Below, one piece after another: positions 5,921 through 27,993 of a DNA stretch of 36,553 bases. Where the stretch lies: positions 1 through 36,553 of the forward strand of contig JABDET010000008.1 of the NCBI GenBank assembly GCA_013286945.1, written 5' to 3'. The stretch comes from Candidatus Melainabacteria bacterium (GTDB taxonomy: Bacteria > Vulcanimicrobiota > JABDET01). Position numbers and translations under genes: made by a program. The notes beneath the pieces are model-generated. The model was given only the letters and a program-made list of their open reading frames with translations. It was not told the DNA's origin and ran no database searches. Every line of letters starts with the position of its first letter. The stretch's first letter is position 1.

Positions 5921-7054
5921 TTAGCCGAGCAAGATGCGATCGCGGCGGTATTCGATGTTTAAGAGGAGGGCAATTGCCACCATGTTGGTTATCAAGCTTG
6001 AGCCACCTGAACTGATGAATGGAAGTGGAATTCCGGTAATTGGCATGATTCTCATCGTCATTCCGATGTTGATAAAAACATGAAAGAAAATCATCACCAC
6101 AATCCCAGCCGCCAGCAATTTCCCAAGACGGTCTTCCGTTTCCAGGGCAATCTTCGAACCAAACCAAAGAAGCGAAAAGAACAAAATGAGGAGCAAGAAA
6201 CCGCCAACGAATCCAAGCTCTTCTGCCGCTACGGTGAAAATGAAATCGGTTGAGTGTTCTGGAACAAATCTGAGTTGGATTTGAGTCCCTGCAAACAATC
6301 CCTTTCCTGCAAATCTTCCTGAGCCAACCGCGATTAACGATTGAATGATATTCCATCCCCAACCGCGCGGATCTTTATTGGGATCAAGAAAAATCAAAAG
6401 CCTTTCTCTTTGATAATCTTTCATCACCCGAAACACGGCACTGCCAGCCACCACGACGCTCGTCAAAATCAGCAAGGGATTCATTCCAAGAAAGAAAAGG
6501 AGTCCAAGCCAGATGGCGGCAAGAACAATCGAAGTTCCAAGATCAGGTTGAGTAAGAACAAGGAGCAATGGAACACCGGTAATCATTCCCGAAATGAACA
6601 GTGATTTTGGACTGAGCGGTTCCCGATTCTCCGAAAAAAAAGTAGCCAACGCAAGGAGCACGGCAAGTTTCGCAAATTCGGATGGTTCAAACGTTCCAAG
6701 AGGCCCGACACGAATCCAGCGTTGCGCTCCAAGCGCCGAATGCCCTTTCTTCCAGACCAGCAAGAGAAGAAAAACAGCCACCCCGTAAAGGACATAACCC
6801 AACCGAATACTAAACGAAGATCCCCCGATGGGAATGCGAAAAGTGCACAAACGTTTGTAGTCTGTCCAGAAAATCAAAAAGGCCAAGGTTAAGCCAACAA
6901 AAAAAGCAAGCGTTTGCCGACCGACGTCAGCAAAAGGGGATGAAGGGTTGTCTCGGAAGGTGGCACTGTAAATGACGATGAGCCCAAAAACAATAAGGAG
7001 CAACGTAACAGACAAGAGTGGCCAATTCATTTTGGCGTACCAGCGACGATACAT
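5921..7054 (-). CDS. rodA: Rod-shape-determining SEDS glycosyltransferase RodA
   Basis: This 377-residue polytopic membrane protein of the FtsW/RodA/SpoVE (SEDS) family polymerises peptidoglycan glycan strands with a class B penicillin-binding protein. Family landmarks are visible: GAQRWI followed by FEPSEFAKLA after the third or fourth helix, LTQPDLGTS in the middle, PEHSTDFIFTVAAEELGF in the large periplasmic loop region, and the C-terminal GIPLPFISSGGSS. About ten hydrophobic segments are present. Length fits RodA, and the lack of a divisome-type N-terminal extension argues against FtsW. It starts seven bases after the accC stop, so it is probably the last gene of the era-accB-accC-rodA unit. 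A second ATG eight codons in is also possible as the start. Confidence 0.88.
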   Translation of the reverse strand: MYRRWYAKMNWPLLSVTLLLIVFGLIVIYSATFRDNPSSPFADVGRQTLAFFVGLTLAFLIFWTDYKRLCTFRIPIGGSSFSIRLGYVLYGVAVFLLLLVWKKGHSALGAQRWIRVGPLGTFEPSEFAKLAVLLALATFFSENREPLSPKSLFISGMITGVPLLLVLTQPDLGTSIVLAAIWLGLLFFLGMNPLLILTSVVVAGSAVFRVMKDYQRERLLIFLDPNKDPRGWGWNIIQSLIAVGSGRFAGKGLFAGTQIQLRFVPEHSTDFIFTVAAEELGFVGGFLLLILFFSLLWFGSKIALETEDRLGKLLAAGIVVMIFFHVFINIGMTMRIMPITGIPLPFISSGGSSLITNMVAIALLLNIEYRRDRILLG

Positions 7055-7060
7055 CGACTT

Positions 7061-8411
7061 CTAGCCGAACACCTTCTCAAGAAGCAAAGCTTCCACGAGT
7101 CCCACATGGAGCTTCCCTTGCACGATATCGGGATGACGCAGCAATTGTCGATGAAGTGGAATGTTCGTCTTGATTCCAAGGACTTCACATTCATCCAGGG
7201 CACACAGCATCCGCTGGATCGATTCGTCGCGATTGGTCCCCCATGCCATGATTTTCCCGAGAAGACTGTCGTAGAAGGGTGTCACCTTGTCTCCTTGGCG
7301 AATGTGGGAATCGACTCGAATGCCTGGCCCACCTGGCCAATGCAATTTCTCAATTTTTCCCGTCGAAGGGGAAAACGTTTCGGGATCTTCAGCATTCACA
7401 CGGCATTCAATCGCATGCCCTTCAATTCGAATCTCTTCTTGTTTGATCGACAGAGGATCACCGAAAGCCACGTGAATCTGTTCTCTAATGAGGTCAAGCC
7501 CACTCACCATTTCGGTAATCGGATGCTCCACTTGGATCCGAGCATTGGCTTCGATGAAATAAAACTTTCCGTTGGGATCCATCAGAAATTCAATGGTTCC
7601 CGCGCCAACGTAATGAACTCCTTTGCCAATCTTGATCGCGAGTTCCTGTATCTTTTTTTCGAACAGGTGGCGTAACCGCAATGGATGGGGCTTCTTCCAT
7701 AATCTTTTGGTGCTGGCGTTGGAGCGAACATTCTCGCTCTCCAACCGCAACAACATTTCCGCTTCGATCGCCCAAGATCTGAACCTCGATGTGGCGTGGT
7801 TCAATGAGGTATTTTTCGAGATACACTCGCCCGTCATTAAAGGAAGCCTCAGCTTCTGCCCGAGCAATAGGAAGGTTTTTTTCAAGCTCAGCGGGAGAAG
7901 TCACAAAGCGCATTCCCTTCCCTCCTCCACCAGCCACCGCTTTGATCATGACCGGATAGCCAATTTGCTTGGCTTTTTTGAGCGCCTCATCCAGATCGGC
8001 GAGGACATCGGTTCCTGGAATCACCGGAACATTCAGTCGTTCTGCCAGACCACGTGCACGAGCTTTGTCACCTAGCATTCCCATTGCTTCAATCGGTGGG
8101 CCAATAAAATGGATTTGATGCTTGTCGCAAATCTCAGCAAATTGCTGGTTTTCAGCAAGAAATCCGTAACCTGGATGAATGGCATCTGCTCCGGTGATCT
8201 GGGCAGCACTCATGATGTTGGGGACATTGAGGTAACTCTTCGCCGCGGAGGGGGAACCGACACAAACCGATTCATCCGCAAGCTTGACGTGGAGCAAATC
8301 GCGATCGGCTTCGGAATAAACGGCAACAGTTTTAATTCCCATTTGCTTGCAAGCTCGAATCACTCGGACCGCGATCTCACCCCGATTGGCGATGAGAATC
8401 TTATGAAACAC
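7061..8411 (-). CDS. accC: Biotin carboxylase AccC, interrupted by a +1 frameshift
   Basis: AccC carboxylates biotin using ATP and bicarbonate in the first step of fatty-acid synthesis. The N-terminal part starts at GTG 8411 (product begins with fMet in place of Val, then FHKILIANRGEIAVRV), overlapping the end of accB. It carries the ATP-grasp loop AGGGGKGMR and the ECSLQRQHQK catalytic region. At 7653-7659 a run of seven A (coding strand) shifts the frame. The C-terminal part continues in another frame with HYVGAGTIEFLMD, EANARIQVEHP and the C-terminal domain. Deleting one A restores an uninterrupted 449-residue protein, the canonical AccC length, and both halves are well conserved. I therefore treat this as one gene with a recent or artefactual insertion, not two genes. 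Without the correction the protein would be truncated after the ATP-grasp core. Confidence 0.85.
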
Positions 8412-8829
8412 GTTCGTTCTCAATGGTGAACAGGAGCTGACCAAACTCAACCGGTTGCCCTTCTTGGGCATGAATTTCGGAAAGCTTCCCCGGCTTTTCT
8501 ACATCGATTGTATGCTGGACATTGACCGCTCTGACGTAACCGAGTGCTTGTCCTGGCTTTAGAAGCGCTCCAACCTGAGGCATCTCAGGCAAGAAATGAA
8601 AGGTTCCAACCACCGGAGATACCACATGAAACAACTCAACTTTCGCACGATTTTTGCCATTGCTCGAGACCGGTGCCTGTCCATGAGATCGGGTCGCTTT
8701 GCGCGACAGCTTAATCCCATAGCCATCTTTTTCCCACTCAAGCTCGGTGGCATCGTACGAATGGAGAATACCCAAGAACTCTTTCAGTTCATGGATAAAA
8801 CCTTTCAGCGTCTTCTTTGATTCATTCAT
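8401..8829 (-). CDS. accB: AccB-like biotin carboxyl carrier protein lacking the biotin-accepting lysine
   Basis: The 142-residue protein has the AccB layout: an N-terminal helical segment (MNESKKTLKGF to about 45), a short linker, and a C-terminal biotinyl domain from SPVVGTF (71) to EGQPVEFGQLLFTIE. The start at 8829 is supported by AGAGGT five to six bases upstream. The biotin-attachment motif, normally EAMKM, reads RAVNV at 100-104, so Asn103 (codon AAT, 8521-8523) replaces the biotinylated Lys. The thumb region before it is also a few residues short. Several neighbouring positions differ, so this is not one miscalled base. As written it cannot be biotinylated at the usual site. It may be a non-catalytic partner, a carrier using another group, or a relic with a true AccB elsewhere. 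It overlaps accC by 11 bases. Confidence 0.85.
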   Translation of the reverse strand: MNESKKTLKGFIHELKEFLGILHSYDATELEWEKDGYGIKLSRKATRSHGQAPVSSNGKNRAKVELFHVVSPVVGTFHFLPEMPQVGALLKPGQALGYVRAVNVQHTIDVEKPGKLSEIHAQEGQPVEFGQLLFTIENERVS

Positions 8830-8902: not shown

Positions 8903-9823
8903 CTATGCGTAGCCGAACAGTCGCAGCATCTCTTCTCGATCCTGCCACCCTTCCTTGACCTTCACCCAAAGGTCGAGAAAAACCGGCTGTTTTTTCCAGA
9001 GGGAAAGCTCTTTTCTGGCCTTGCTCCCAATCTTCTTTAACATTTGACCTCCCGCGCCGACCACAATCGCTTTGTGAGACTCTCGTTCGACGAAAATCGT
9101 GGCACGAACATACAAGGTCTTTCCATCTTTTCCTGGCCGAACTTCATCGATGGCCACAGCCACACCATGAGGAACCTCCTCGTGAATGAACATGAGAACC
9201 TTTTCACGAATGATTTCGGAAATGTAAAACAGGTCTTCCCCTGATTCGAGATCCTCTTCTTGAAAATAAGCAGGCCCTACCGGAAGACAAGCCTCGATCG
9301 CTTTTTCCAAAGTCTTTAGATTGTCCCCCTTTAAGGCCGAGATTGGAAAAACTTCGCTGAACTCCCCGAGCTTCGAGTAATTTTCGATGACAGGAAGAAG
9401 CTCTCGTTTGTCTGGCACTCGATCCACTTTGTTAATCACAAGATAAAGGGTTGGCGCGGGCTTCCGATTGCGCAGCCCTCCACGAAGCACTCGAAACGCC
9501 CAACGATCTTCGTCCTTCGGTTCTGGATGAATGCCTGACACCATGAAAAGGCAGACATCGCAGTCCACCAGCGCTTCCTCTGAATGTTTGACGAGCCGTT
9601 TTCCCAAAAGGTCTCTTGGAGAAGTGAGGCCAGGCGTATCAACAAAAATCATTTGGTTTTCTTCCGTACTCCTCACCCCAAGAATTCGTTGCCGTGTGGT
9701 TTGACTTTTGGGGGAAGTAATGGCAACCTTCTTGCCAACCAATTGATTAACGAGCGTTGATTTCCCAACATTGGGTTTCCCAGTAACCGCAATAAATCCT
9801 GAGTGAAATGTTTTCTTTTTCAA
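8903..9823 (-). CDS. era: GTPase Era
   Basis: Era is a ribosome-assembly GTPase that binds the 3' end of 16S rRNA. The 306-residue protein shows the P-loop GKPNVGKST (15-23), switch II DTPG (62-65), NKVD (131-134) and a C-terminal KH RNA-binding domain with VGAGGQMLKKIG near 258-269. Length matches the family. The first available start is TTG at 9823, since there is no ATG before the P-loop, and I see no strong ribosome site in front of it. It lies 29 bases downstream of the NUDIX gene and upstream of accB, in what looks like one transcription unit. Confidence 0.95.
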   Translation of the reverse strand: MKKKTFHSGFIAVTGKPNVGKSTLVNQLVGKKVAITSPKSQTTRQRILGVRSTEENQMIFVDTPGLTSPRDLLGKRLVKHSEEALVDCDVCLFMVSGIHPEPKDEDRWAFRVLRGGLRNRKPAPTLYLVINKVDRVPDKRELLPVIENYSKLGEFSEVFPISALKGDNLKTLEKAIEACLPVGPAYFQEEDLESGEDLFYISEIIREKVLMFIHEEVPHGVAVAIDEVRPGKDGKTLYVRATIFVERESHKAIVVGAGGQMLKKIGSKARKELSLWKKQPVFLDLWVKVKEGWQDREEMLRLFGYA

Positions 9824-20684: not shown

Positions 20685-22160
20685 TCATAATCGTATGGGG
20701 ATGCCCTTATGTGCCAAGTATTGCTTGGCTTCTTGGATTGAAATCTCTTGGTTATGGAACAGGCTTGCAGCCAAAACCGCATCAGCCTTCCCTTCAACCA
20801 AGGCTCTCCTCAAGTCTTCAAGACAGCCCGCTCCCCCTGAAGCAATCACGGGAATGTTCACTGAATCAGAAATTTGCCGCAGAATCTTCAAATCAAAGCC
20901 TTCTTTGGTTCCATCGCGATCCATCGAGGTCAACAAGATCTCACCTGCCCCTAAGGCTTCAACTTTCTTGGCCCAAGAAACCGCTTCAAGCGATGTTTCC
21001 TCACGTCCACCTTTGACAAACACTTTATAGGAATTTCCGGATCGTTTCACATCGATCGCCACCACAATGCACTGGGACCCAAAGGCTCTCGCACCCTCGG
21101 AAATGAGTGGAGGGTTTTGCACAGCGGAGGTGTTCAGTGACACCTTGTCCGCCCCATGATGGAGAAGACGCCGGATCTCATCAACACTCTTTATCCCCCC
21201 ACCCACGGTAAAGGGGATAAAAACATTCTTGGCCACCTTCCGTACCAAATCAAAAATGGTTTCACGGTTTTCGTAAGAAGCGGTGATATCGAGGAATACA
21301 AGCTCATCCGCATTTTCATCTGAATAACGCTTCCCAAGTTCCACCGGGTCTCCCGCATCACGAAGATTCAAAAACTTAACCCCCTTGACCACCCGGCCGT
21401 CTTTGACATCTAAGCATGGAATGATTCGTTTGGTTAAATTCGATGCGAAGCTTCCAGTCTTCAAGGCTTCACTTAACGTTATTTTCTTCTCGTAAATGGC
21501 TTTACCAAGAATGGCCCCATAAGCCCCAAGGTTTTTCAATTTTTCCAGGCTTTCCGTTTCCGATATTCCGCCAGAAGCCACCACATGAAATCCAAAGCCA
21601 ACGAGCTTTTCGATCGCTTCAAAATTGGGCTTCGTGAGTGTTCCATCCCGAACGATATCCGTAAAAATCACTTCCTGAATTCCAAGATCTTTCATTTCCT
21701 TTGCAAAATCAAGGTAAGAGGAGTTGCTCGTGTTCACCCACCCGTCTGTAGCCACTTTCCCCTCTTTGGCATCAAGCCCAAGAACAATACGCTCTGGTCC
21801 AAACCTCTTTAAACACTCCTGAAGAAATGTTCGATCCTGAATCGCTTTGGTCCCAAGGACAATCCGCTTGACCCCTGCATTAAGATATTTTTCGACGGTT
21901 TCCTGGTCGCGAATTCCCCCTCCAACCTCAAGTGGCGCATGAACCACCGCCGCCATGCTGAGAATGAGTTCCAGGTTTTCCGGAATTCCGCTTCGTGCCC
22001 CATCCAAGTCAACCACATGAATCAACGGAGCTCCCTCCGAAGCAAAAGTCTCTGCCACTCTTACTGGATTTGTATCATAGACTTTTTTCGAGGCATAATC
22101 CCCTTGGGTTAGCCTGACACACTCACCATCAATAATGTCGACTGCCGGAATGATCAACAT
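20685..22160 (-). CDS. hisAF: Fused HisA-HisF: ProFAR isomerase plus imidazole glycerol phosphate synthase cyclase
   Basis: The 491-residue protein carries two consecutive (beta-alpha)8 barrels. HisA (about 1-240) begins [12 protein letters not shown] with catalytic Asp8, Asp130 and the FTDIVRDGT loop (Asp172); it isomerises ProFAR. HisF (about 242-491) begins [19 protein letters not shown] with Asp251 and Asp370 (VAIDVKRSG) and the [10 protein letters not shown] loop; it cyclises PRFAR using ammonia from HisH. No stop or start codon separates them and the linker is at most a few residues near SFASN. The start is ATG 22160, overlapping the hisH stop; a TTG three codons earlier is possible. 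The partner glutaminase HisH is directly upstream. HisA-HisF fusion is unusual; separate genes are the rule. Confidence 0.93.
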
Positions 22161-22741
22161 TTCTCGCAAAAGTTCGACAAGAGTTGAAGTCCGATTTCTC
22201 CCGACTTCTCCGTATGAAACTGAACTGCATAAAAATTGTCCTTTTGAACCATCGAAGAAAAGGATACTCCGTATAAAGTTGTCCCGGTTGTATAAGCATC
22301 ATTCGTGGGCAAATAATAAGAATTGACAAAATAAAAGTAGCTCCCGGTTGGGATTCCCTCTGTCAGACGATTTTTTTTTACAAACTCCACGCGATTCCAG
22401 CCAATTTGCGGCGTTTTCAATTCTCGAGAAAACCGCTTCACCGTTCCTGGGACAATCGACAAACAATCCGCTTCGTCTTCTTCGGAGTTCTCTGCAAAGA
22501 GTTGTAAGCCTAAGCAAATCCCGAGACATGGAACCTTTAGATCAGGCAAGATCCGGCTAAAACCTGTTTGTCGAAGTCGCTCCATGGCCTGCCCAGCCGC
22601 ACCGACCCCAGGAAGAATCACCTTCCGAAAATCAACAAGCTTTTCCGGGCTCGACACCACCTCAAACGGTTGTCCAAGCTTCTCGAGTCCGTTGCAAACA
22701 CTTTGCAAGTTGCTCGCACCATAGTCAATCACGGCTATCAT
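22154..22741 (-). CDS. hisH: Imidazole glycerol phosphate synthase glutaminase subunit HisH
   Basis: HisH hydrolyses glutamine and channels ammonia to HisF. The 195-residue class I amidotransferase has the oxyanion strand PGVGAAG (44-50), nucleophile Cys76 in CLGICLGLQ, and His176 and Glu178 in [11 protein letters not shown], so the triad is complete. Start and stop overlap hisB (ATGA) and hisAF. Its position immediately before the fused partner fits obligate complex formation. Confidence 0.95.
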
Positions 22742-26703: not shown

Positions 26704-27993
26704 GACGCTTGATAGCCATTGAGATAAATGGTAAGCTGACTTTGGGGAATAACTTTTTGCTTCCCAGTTTTCATTACCTTGATAATGGCTTCTCCATGCT
26801 CGATTTCATCAGGACCACAAATGATAACAAACGGAATTCCCTTTTTTTTCTGCGTAGCGCAGTTGCTTGCTAAGCCGATCGGATTGAAAATAAATTTCAG
26901 CATTAATTTGAGCTTCTCGAAGCGAATTCACGATTCGCAATGAGTTGGGTAATGTTTCTTCATCAAGATAGGTCACCAAAACTTGGGAATTAAGGCGAAC
27001 ATCTTTCAGCATATCCAGCTCTTCCATCGCCAGCATGATCCGGTCAAACGCAAAGGCGGCCCCCACCCCGCTGAATTTTTCTCGAGAGAAAGTCGAGCAG
27101 AGATCATCGTAGCGCCCACCGGCGCATACGGCTCCAAGCTTGACATCAGGCAAGCTCACTTTGAAGATAAGGCCCGTGTAATAATCAAGACCTCTGGACA
27201 AACTCGGGTCAAATTTGAGATAACGAGTCGGGACCTCGAATGCTTCCGAAATCCTGATAAACTCCCGAATTTCGGATGGAGAATACTCTTCTAGAAAACG
27301 CATTTTCTCTTCATTGGTTCCTGTAACTCCGACCGTTTTAAGAAGTGCATCGGCTTTCTCTTCTGGGAGGATCTTTCGGAGCTCCTCACCCACCGCTCCC
27401 TTCCCAATTTTTTCAAGTTTGTCCAGAAGCCGGATAACCGGAAGTTGCTTGTCCAGGGCAATTCGGAGCCGTGAAAGGATGTTGTTCATTAAACGGCGGC
27501 TATTAAACCTGAAAACAAGATCTTCAAAACCCAACGCTTCAAACACAGAGACAATCACTCGAGCGATTTCTCCCTCAGCCATCAGGCTGTCGGTTCCGAT
27601 GATGTCAATATCACATTGATGAAATTCCCGATATCGACCCCGGGCGGGCTTATCAGCTCGCCACACGGGGGAAATCTGATAACGCTTAAAAGGCATCGGG
27701 AGATTTTGATAGTTCGAAGCCACAAAACGAGCAAAAGGCACGGTTTGATCATACCGAAGCGCTAGCTTTCTTCCCCCGTGATCGTTAAAAGTGTAAGTGA
27801 GCTTCGATTCATTTTCCCCGTAATTGCCATGAATGGTCTTCGCGTATTCAATGGCCGGGGTTTCAATGGTGTCATAACCAAAATTCACGAAGACCGACTT
27901 GATTTTCTCCAAAACAAATTCTCGTCTTACCATGTCTTTGGGAAGAAAATCACGGGTCCCTTTAGGAATCTCTGGGGTAATGAGCGTTGTCAT
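26700..27993 (-). CDS. hisS: Histidyl-tRNA synthetase HisS, interrupted by a +1 frameshift near its C-terminus
   Basis: This class II aminoacyl-tRNA synthetase charges tRNA-His. The N-terminal catalytic part begins with PKGTRDFLPKD (motif 1 region), then RYQISPVWRADKPARGRYREF (motif 2, resembling the eukaryote/archaeal branch) and the HisA motif LDYYTG. At 26842-26849 a run of eight A on the coding strand shifts the frame after RYAEKKG. The anticodon-binding domain resumes in another frame with IPFVIICGPDE and ends in a stop that overlaps hisG as ATGA. Removing one A gives a continuous 430-residue protein of normal length, and the restored overlap matches every other junction in the operon. 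The uncorrected frame ends after SVCYHLWS. Confidence 0.88.

Follow-up and report, generated by a model that had tools for sequence, protein, structure and literature searches.

The closest known counterparts of the protein reported here are the plant BADC proteins, which are homologues of the biotin carrier BCCP without the biotinylation motif, share 25-30% identity with BCCP and coexist with a true BCCP (PMC11926652). BADC binds both BCCP and biotin carboxylase (BC), and whether it acts as a glue or as a brake is disputed (PMC11926652, PMC7712654): one description is that of a glue that goes with the biotin carboxylase component of the heteromeric acetyl-CoA carboxylase (PMC11926652), the other that of a competitor that lowers activity and binds in a pH-dependent manner (PMC7712654). 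According to a 2025 paper, BADC occurs solely in the plant enzyme. Small epsilon-type subunits without catalytic function, which belong to certain bacterial acyl-CoA carboxylases, are cited as glue in PMC11926652. The acetyl-CoA carboxylase of Chloroflexus aurantiacus has a fused BC-BCCP; EAMKM is retained in its free BCCP as well as in the fused one, and the latter was shown to be biotinylated (PMC11077971). A bacterial non-biotinylated AccB paralogue was not found in our literature searches, which is weak evidence, with subscription papers mostly outside their scope. Acetyl-CoA carboxylase controls entry to fatty-acid synthesis.

The gene considered here, accBx, encodes an AccB-like paralogue without the biotinylation lysine. 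It lies in the window, i.e. the whole stretch of 36,553 nucleotides that was analysed, which is contig C8 of a 1.73-Mb genome (106 contigs, 67% complete) of the Eremiobacterota/Vulcanimicrobiota lineage (WPS-2). An earlier note on this DNA had recognized an AccB homologue at this place that lacks the biotinylation lysine, and both the reading of the ORF (coding 8404-8829, reverse strand, ATG at 8829, product of 142 amino acids) and the profile matches confirm this. Where canonical AccB has EAMKM, AccBx has RAVNV, encoded by AGAGCGGTCAATGTC, with Asn103 in the position of the AccB lysine; the earlier note had the residues right and the coordinates (8521-8535) one codon off (table 1). Against TIGR00531 (BCCP), AccBx scores 56.7 bits (E=3.7e-15), which is under the curated cut-off of 115.2, and canonical AccB proteins of relatives score 96-132 bits; the match to Pfam Biotin_lipoyl has E=2.5e-6. 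The proposed alignment with AccB including the N-terminal segment holds, with a relatives-enriched profile covering residues 24-176 of E. coli AccB from the BC-BCCP crystal structure 4hr7, and so does the proposed shortening of the thumb, since 13 residues separate two fixed glycines in AccBx versus 18 in 35/35 canonical AccB read. AccBx thus lacks both the acceptor lysine of EAMKM and the curated TIGR00531 score of a canonical AccB. Nor does it read as a lipoyl E2 protein, as its hairpin has no lysine where a DKA motif is expected; in contrast, the E2 protein of the same genome (contig C20) reads TDKAT.

Table 1. Features in and around the accBx locus (positions in the window).
Feature	Position	Strand	Basis and remarks
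accBx (AccB-like paralogue without biotinylation lysine)	8401..8829	-	ORF, domain matches, orthologues, modelled biotinyl fold
RAVNV replacing EAMKM	8518..8532	-	residues 100-104, Asn103 at hairpin tip
accC, biotin carboxylase of acetyl-CoA carboxylase, two frames in assembly	7061..8411	-	ORFs, domain matches; GTG start 8411
Run of seven A (coding strand), point of accC frame change	7653..7659	-	probable assembly indel; relatives' accC intact
rodA, directly downstream of accC	5921..7054	-	TIGR02210; same place in G001 and G002 (tblastn to L038/L039)
era GTPase, upstream neighbour	8903..9823	-	not beside accBx in L038/L039 (G001/G002); by gene order no part of the accBx system

An AlphaFold model predicts a biotinyl barrel (block-mean pLDDT 90-98 over residues 61-140) plus an N-terminal helix, with strands 95-101 and 104-109 turning at Val102-Asn103, the position of the missing lysine. 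The best Foldseek matches of this model are E. coli BCCP (1bdo, 4hr7; biotinyl domain rmsd 1.5-1.6 Å) and Arabidopsis BCCP1 (9a87). Judged from sequence and modelled fold, AccBx has kept the N-terminal segment, the biotinyl fold and the place before accC of canonical AccB/BCCP (TIGR00531; E. coli 1bdo, 4hr7), and differs from it in that the acceptor lysine is gone, the thumb has been lost as well in this lineage, the score falls below the family cut-off and the protein forms a separate clade (100/99).

The accC gene starts with its GTG inside the end of accBx, giving an 11-nt overlap, such that the claim of direct adjacency stands; it requires the correction, however, that accC itself is frameshifted in this assembly, where the break separates ORFs 7590-8471 and 7061-7885. 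A second homopolymer break in the window affects hisS (about 26810-26890, near a run of eight A). Because two such breaks occur in one window and accC is intact in relatives, both look like assembly errors, and both frame changes are probably assembly indels. By contrast, accBx has no frame break and no homopolymer run above five bases, so RAVNV is not explained by homopolymer error.

Among relatives, the same-family genomes G001 and G002 carry accBx orthologues (38 and 43% identity) that read TSINV and directly precede accC, share the order accBx-accC-rodA with the window, and encode a canonical AccB with EAMKV elsewhere. The earlier note would have counted EAMKM in all close relatives against its reading; the nearest ones have TSINV. 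A single-sequence scan of genome contigs with AccBx recovered no relative; the accBx profile, in contrast to it, matches 144/149 genomes of the phylum, the majority giving two or more AccB-type matches, and two AccB proteins occur in genomes of 15/16 sampled Eremiobacterota families. As read in 30 accC-linked copies from 15 families, the site of the lysine is occupied by K in 3, N in 8, R in 2, G in 16 and S in 1, i.e. 27/30 are lysine-less, and the canonical copies have their lysine (EAMK) in 23/23 read, with none standing next to accC. A second set, consisting of 30 best-profile-hit loci, gave the same picture: 22/23 accC-adjacent copies are lysine-less (the exception being G003; L069, misaligned in this set, is counted as ETVNI from a separate reading) and 7/7 non-adjacent copies read EAMKLF. 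At this site, every one of the named Eremiobacterota loci L142-L207 has G, a count not used as a frequency because these loci were fetched partly with an LGIR-containing pattern and are biased. A canonical and a lysine-less copy were both read in G001, G002 and 13 further genomes, so that coexistence of accBx with a true lysine-bearing AccB is shown at the sequence level in relatives. In five genomes, which represent four families, hisS is followed by canonical accB. In G006 and G010, no strong accC-type match was found other than the copy paired with the lysine-less protein, and the biotin carboxylase of their acetyl-CoA carboxylase is therefore the one paired with it. No match to accBx was found in some f13 genomes, and neither an ACC-type accC nor AccB in family f7 (G008, G011), where an AccD-like protein of roughly 590 amino acids is seen in their place. 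By its distribution, AccBx is a phylum-wide paralogue rather than a single-genome oddity. A further AccB type (EVMKL[IM]NTI) stands beside another accC copy in L119 (G057) and L123 (G107), both of f8, and apparently belongs to a separate carboxylase. One AccBx of the Eremiobacterota type comes from a 3.4-kb contig that bears the label Hyphomicrobiales (L184, palsa_929), which is probably a binning error.

For the genome of the window itself, the proposed search for a second accB and for birA found neither a canonical accB nor a birA or other biotin ligase gene in the 67% present, whereas canonical accB is present in relatives. In relatives (G001, G002) there is good support for the suggested combination of a BCCP homologue in a regulatory or structural role and a true accB at another locus; this genome shows no canonical accB of its own. 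Besides accD, it contains a propionyl/methylcrotonyl-type carrier with ESMKME, followed by an HMG-CoA-lyase-like gene; this carrier and the E2 lipoyl protein are the only other carriers found, with no further AccB-type protein. Since a biotin enzyme (ESMKME) is encoded, the absence of a biotin ligase is put down to incompleteness. Linkage to hisS was also tried in order to locate the canonical accB, and the hisS-type gene of the window (26809-27993) adjoins hisG-hisD, not accB.

The survey comprised Eremiobacterota and Armatimonadota. In Armatimonadota, 246/251 genomes match the accBx profile, usually with two copies, and in almost every locus read the best-matching copy precedes accC on its upstream side. 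This accC-linked copy is thumb-less in most cases, with the lysine kept in 17/32 and lost in 15/32 (G 12, N 3). Because the lysine is also kept in 3/30 Eremiobacterota copies, lack of biotin is not universal in the accC-linked paralogue. All examined Armatimonadota loci (L246, L250, L248, L256 and others) have a short prepilin-like ORF with conserved NLxxxR and CPV..Y.YDP between accBx and accC.

In a tree of 97 sequences, calculated with the motif columns removed and canonical AccB of other phyla included, one branch with a support of 100/99 divides all canonical AccB from all accC-linked copies; long branches make finer relations unsure. The lysine state requires at least seven changes on this tree. 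The simplest reading is that an old paralogue remained linked to accC and repeatedly lost the lysine, with biotin carriage being left to the other copy. Between G001 and G002, accBx has a dN/dS of 0.11, against 0.20 in canonical accB and 0.06 in accC, and two other accBx pairs gave 0.17 and 0.23, all of these values being rough owing to high dS. The LGIR replacement motif is invariant in 13 diverse f8/f16 copies. A dN/dS of about 0.11 together with a confidently modelled biotinyl fold means that accBx is maintained; it is under purifying selection.

We propose that AccBx is a non-biotinylated, non-catalytic partner of AccC that would assemble or tune acetyl-CoA carboxylase in a BADC-like manner, and we put the probability of the assembly role at roughly 0.6. 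Coupled translation would keep the production of AccBx in step with that of AccC; AccBx would bind AccC and probably canonical AccB as well via the retained AccB surfaces, and would act as a non-catalytic subunit that builds and holds an AccC-AccB subcomplex in which canonical AccB carries the biotin. Since AccBx could occupy AccC without biotin, the AccBx:AccB ratio may also throttle malonyl-CoA synthesis. An operon that makes AccBx in step with AccC suits a stoichiometric subunit, and we judge the assembly role likelier than a brake. Several points count against it: the lysine is retained in part of the accC-linked copies of both phyla; the part of BCCP that touches BADC in plants is the thumb, a feature of the canonical partner, and the contact in the bacterial system is putative; and the incomplete genome of the window has no detected canonical accB.

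Among the alternatives, a dedicated inhibitor or sensor that competes with biotin-bearing AccB for AccC, perhaps depending on the pH or the metabolic state, and whose main effect would be to lower activity, is possible, though rather unlikely. Such a model, pH-dependent binding included, has been published for plant BADC (PMC7712654), and a lysine-less copy that keeps the AccB surfaces seems built for competition; yet the one-to-one coupling with AccC, seen in almost all genomes of the phylum, is more in keeping with a constant subunit than with a brake that can be adjusted, and a separate promoter or regulator was not seen for accBx. A biotin-independent scaffold or a moonlighting function outside acetyl-CoA carboxylase, for instance as an autogenous regulator of the accC operon, could be modelled on E. 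coli AccB, which regulates its own operon. With no match to a DNA-binding domain in profile domain searches of AccBx, and with a strong linkage to accC and not to other genes, we think this quite improbable.

That AccBx carries biotin, a lipoyl or some further group at another residue, a reading that takes in the alternative prosthetic group of the earlier note, is very doubtful: nothing beyond the retained fold speaks for it, conservation of any other lysine column does not exceed 29% across the 42 lysine-less copies, and various residues (N, G, R, S) have taken the place of the lysine. The frameshifted accC of the window might suggest a decaying pseudogene, but the dN/dS of 0.11-0.23, frames that are open throughout the phylum and the LGIR invariance in f8/f16 lead us to reject this; simple loss of function, as raised in the earlier note, is not supported, given the dN/dS of 0.11, conservation across two phyla and the intact modelled fold. 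Least credible of all is a sequencing or assembly artefact at RAVNV. The draft of the window does contain at least two homopolymer frameshifts; nevertheless, the orthologues in the independent genomes G001 and G002 also have this Asn and stand in an identical accBx-accC-rodA order, which bears out the earlier view that a base error is unlikely, and sequencing error at the motif is rejected.

Returning to AccBx as an AccC partner, its likeness to BADC (BADC1-3, Arabidopsis plastid) is drawn from sequence, predicted fold and gene order, the binding of BADC itself being published: both are BCCP homologues without the biotinylation motif that stand beside a true BCCP, in the case of AccBx as seen in relatives. 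AccBx is unlike BADC in being bacterial, in forming an operon with accC, in usually having lost the thumb and in keeping the lysine in some members. If our reading holds, AccBx works like BADC; membership in the BADC family, in terms of binding and descent, is putative, and the likeness is more likely convergent than due to common descent. With the epsilon-type subunits, AccBx would share the role of a non-catalytic bacterial subunit that aids formation of a carboxylase complex. To our knowledge these subunits are not derived from a biotin carrier, and they differ from AccBx in origin, with no homology claimed. AccBx genomes and Chloroflexus aurantiacus both distribute BCCP in a way that is unusual for a bacterial acetyl-CoA carboxylase; they differ in that EAMKM is lost in AccBx and kept in the latter.

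On balance, we lean towards the view that Eremiobacterota and part of Armatimonadota use, in their acetyl-CoA carboxylase, a dedicated AccB subunit that is not biotinylated and is encoded with AccC, i.e. a BADC counterpart of independent origin, which would have discarded its lysine several times after becoming an AccC-assembly subunit. A bacterial family in two phyla with BADC logic, lysine-bearing as well as lysine-less members and a compact operon would make the question of glue or brake directly testable. It would also change annotation in mostly uncultivated phyla, where the gene beside accC is not to be equated with a biotin carrier.

Minor observations concern neighbouring genes. A protein that by eye resembles bacterial-microcompartment shell proteins is encoded just upstream of accBx-accC in G001 (L136, 6055-6414). 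In the window, the hisS-type gene (26748-27993, reverse strand) has its frame change near the C-terminus and is followed by hisG-hisD. A 494-aa ORF at 20685-22169 (reverse strand) is apparently a HisA-HisF fusion, with hisA matching its first half and hisF the second.
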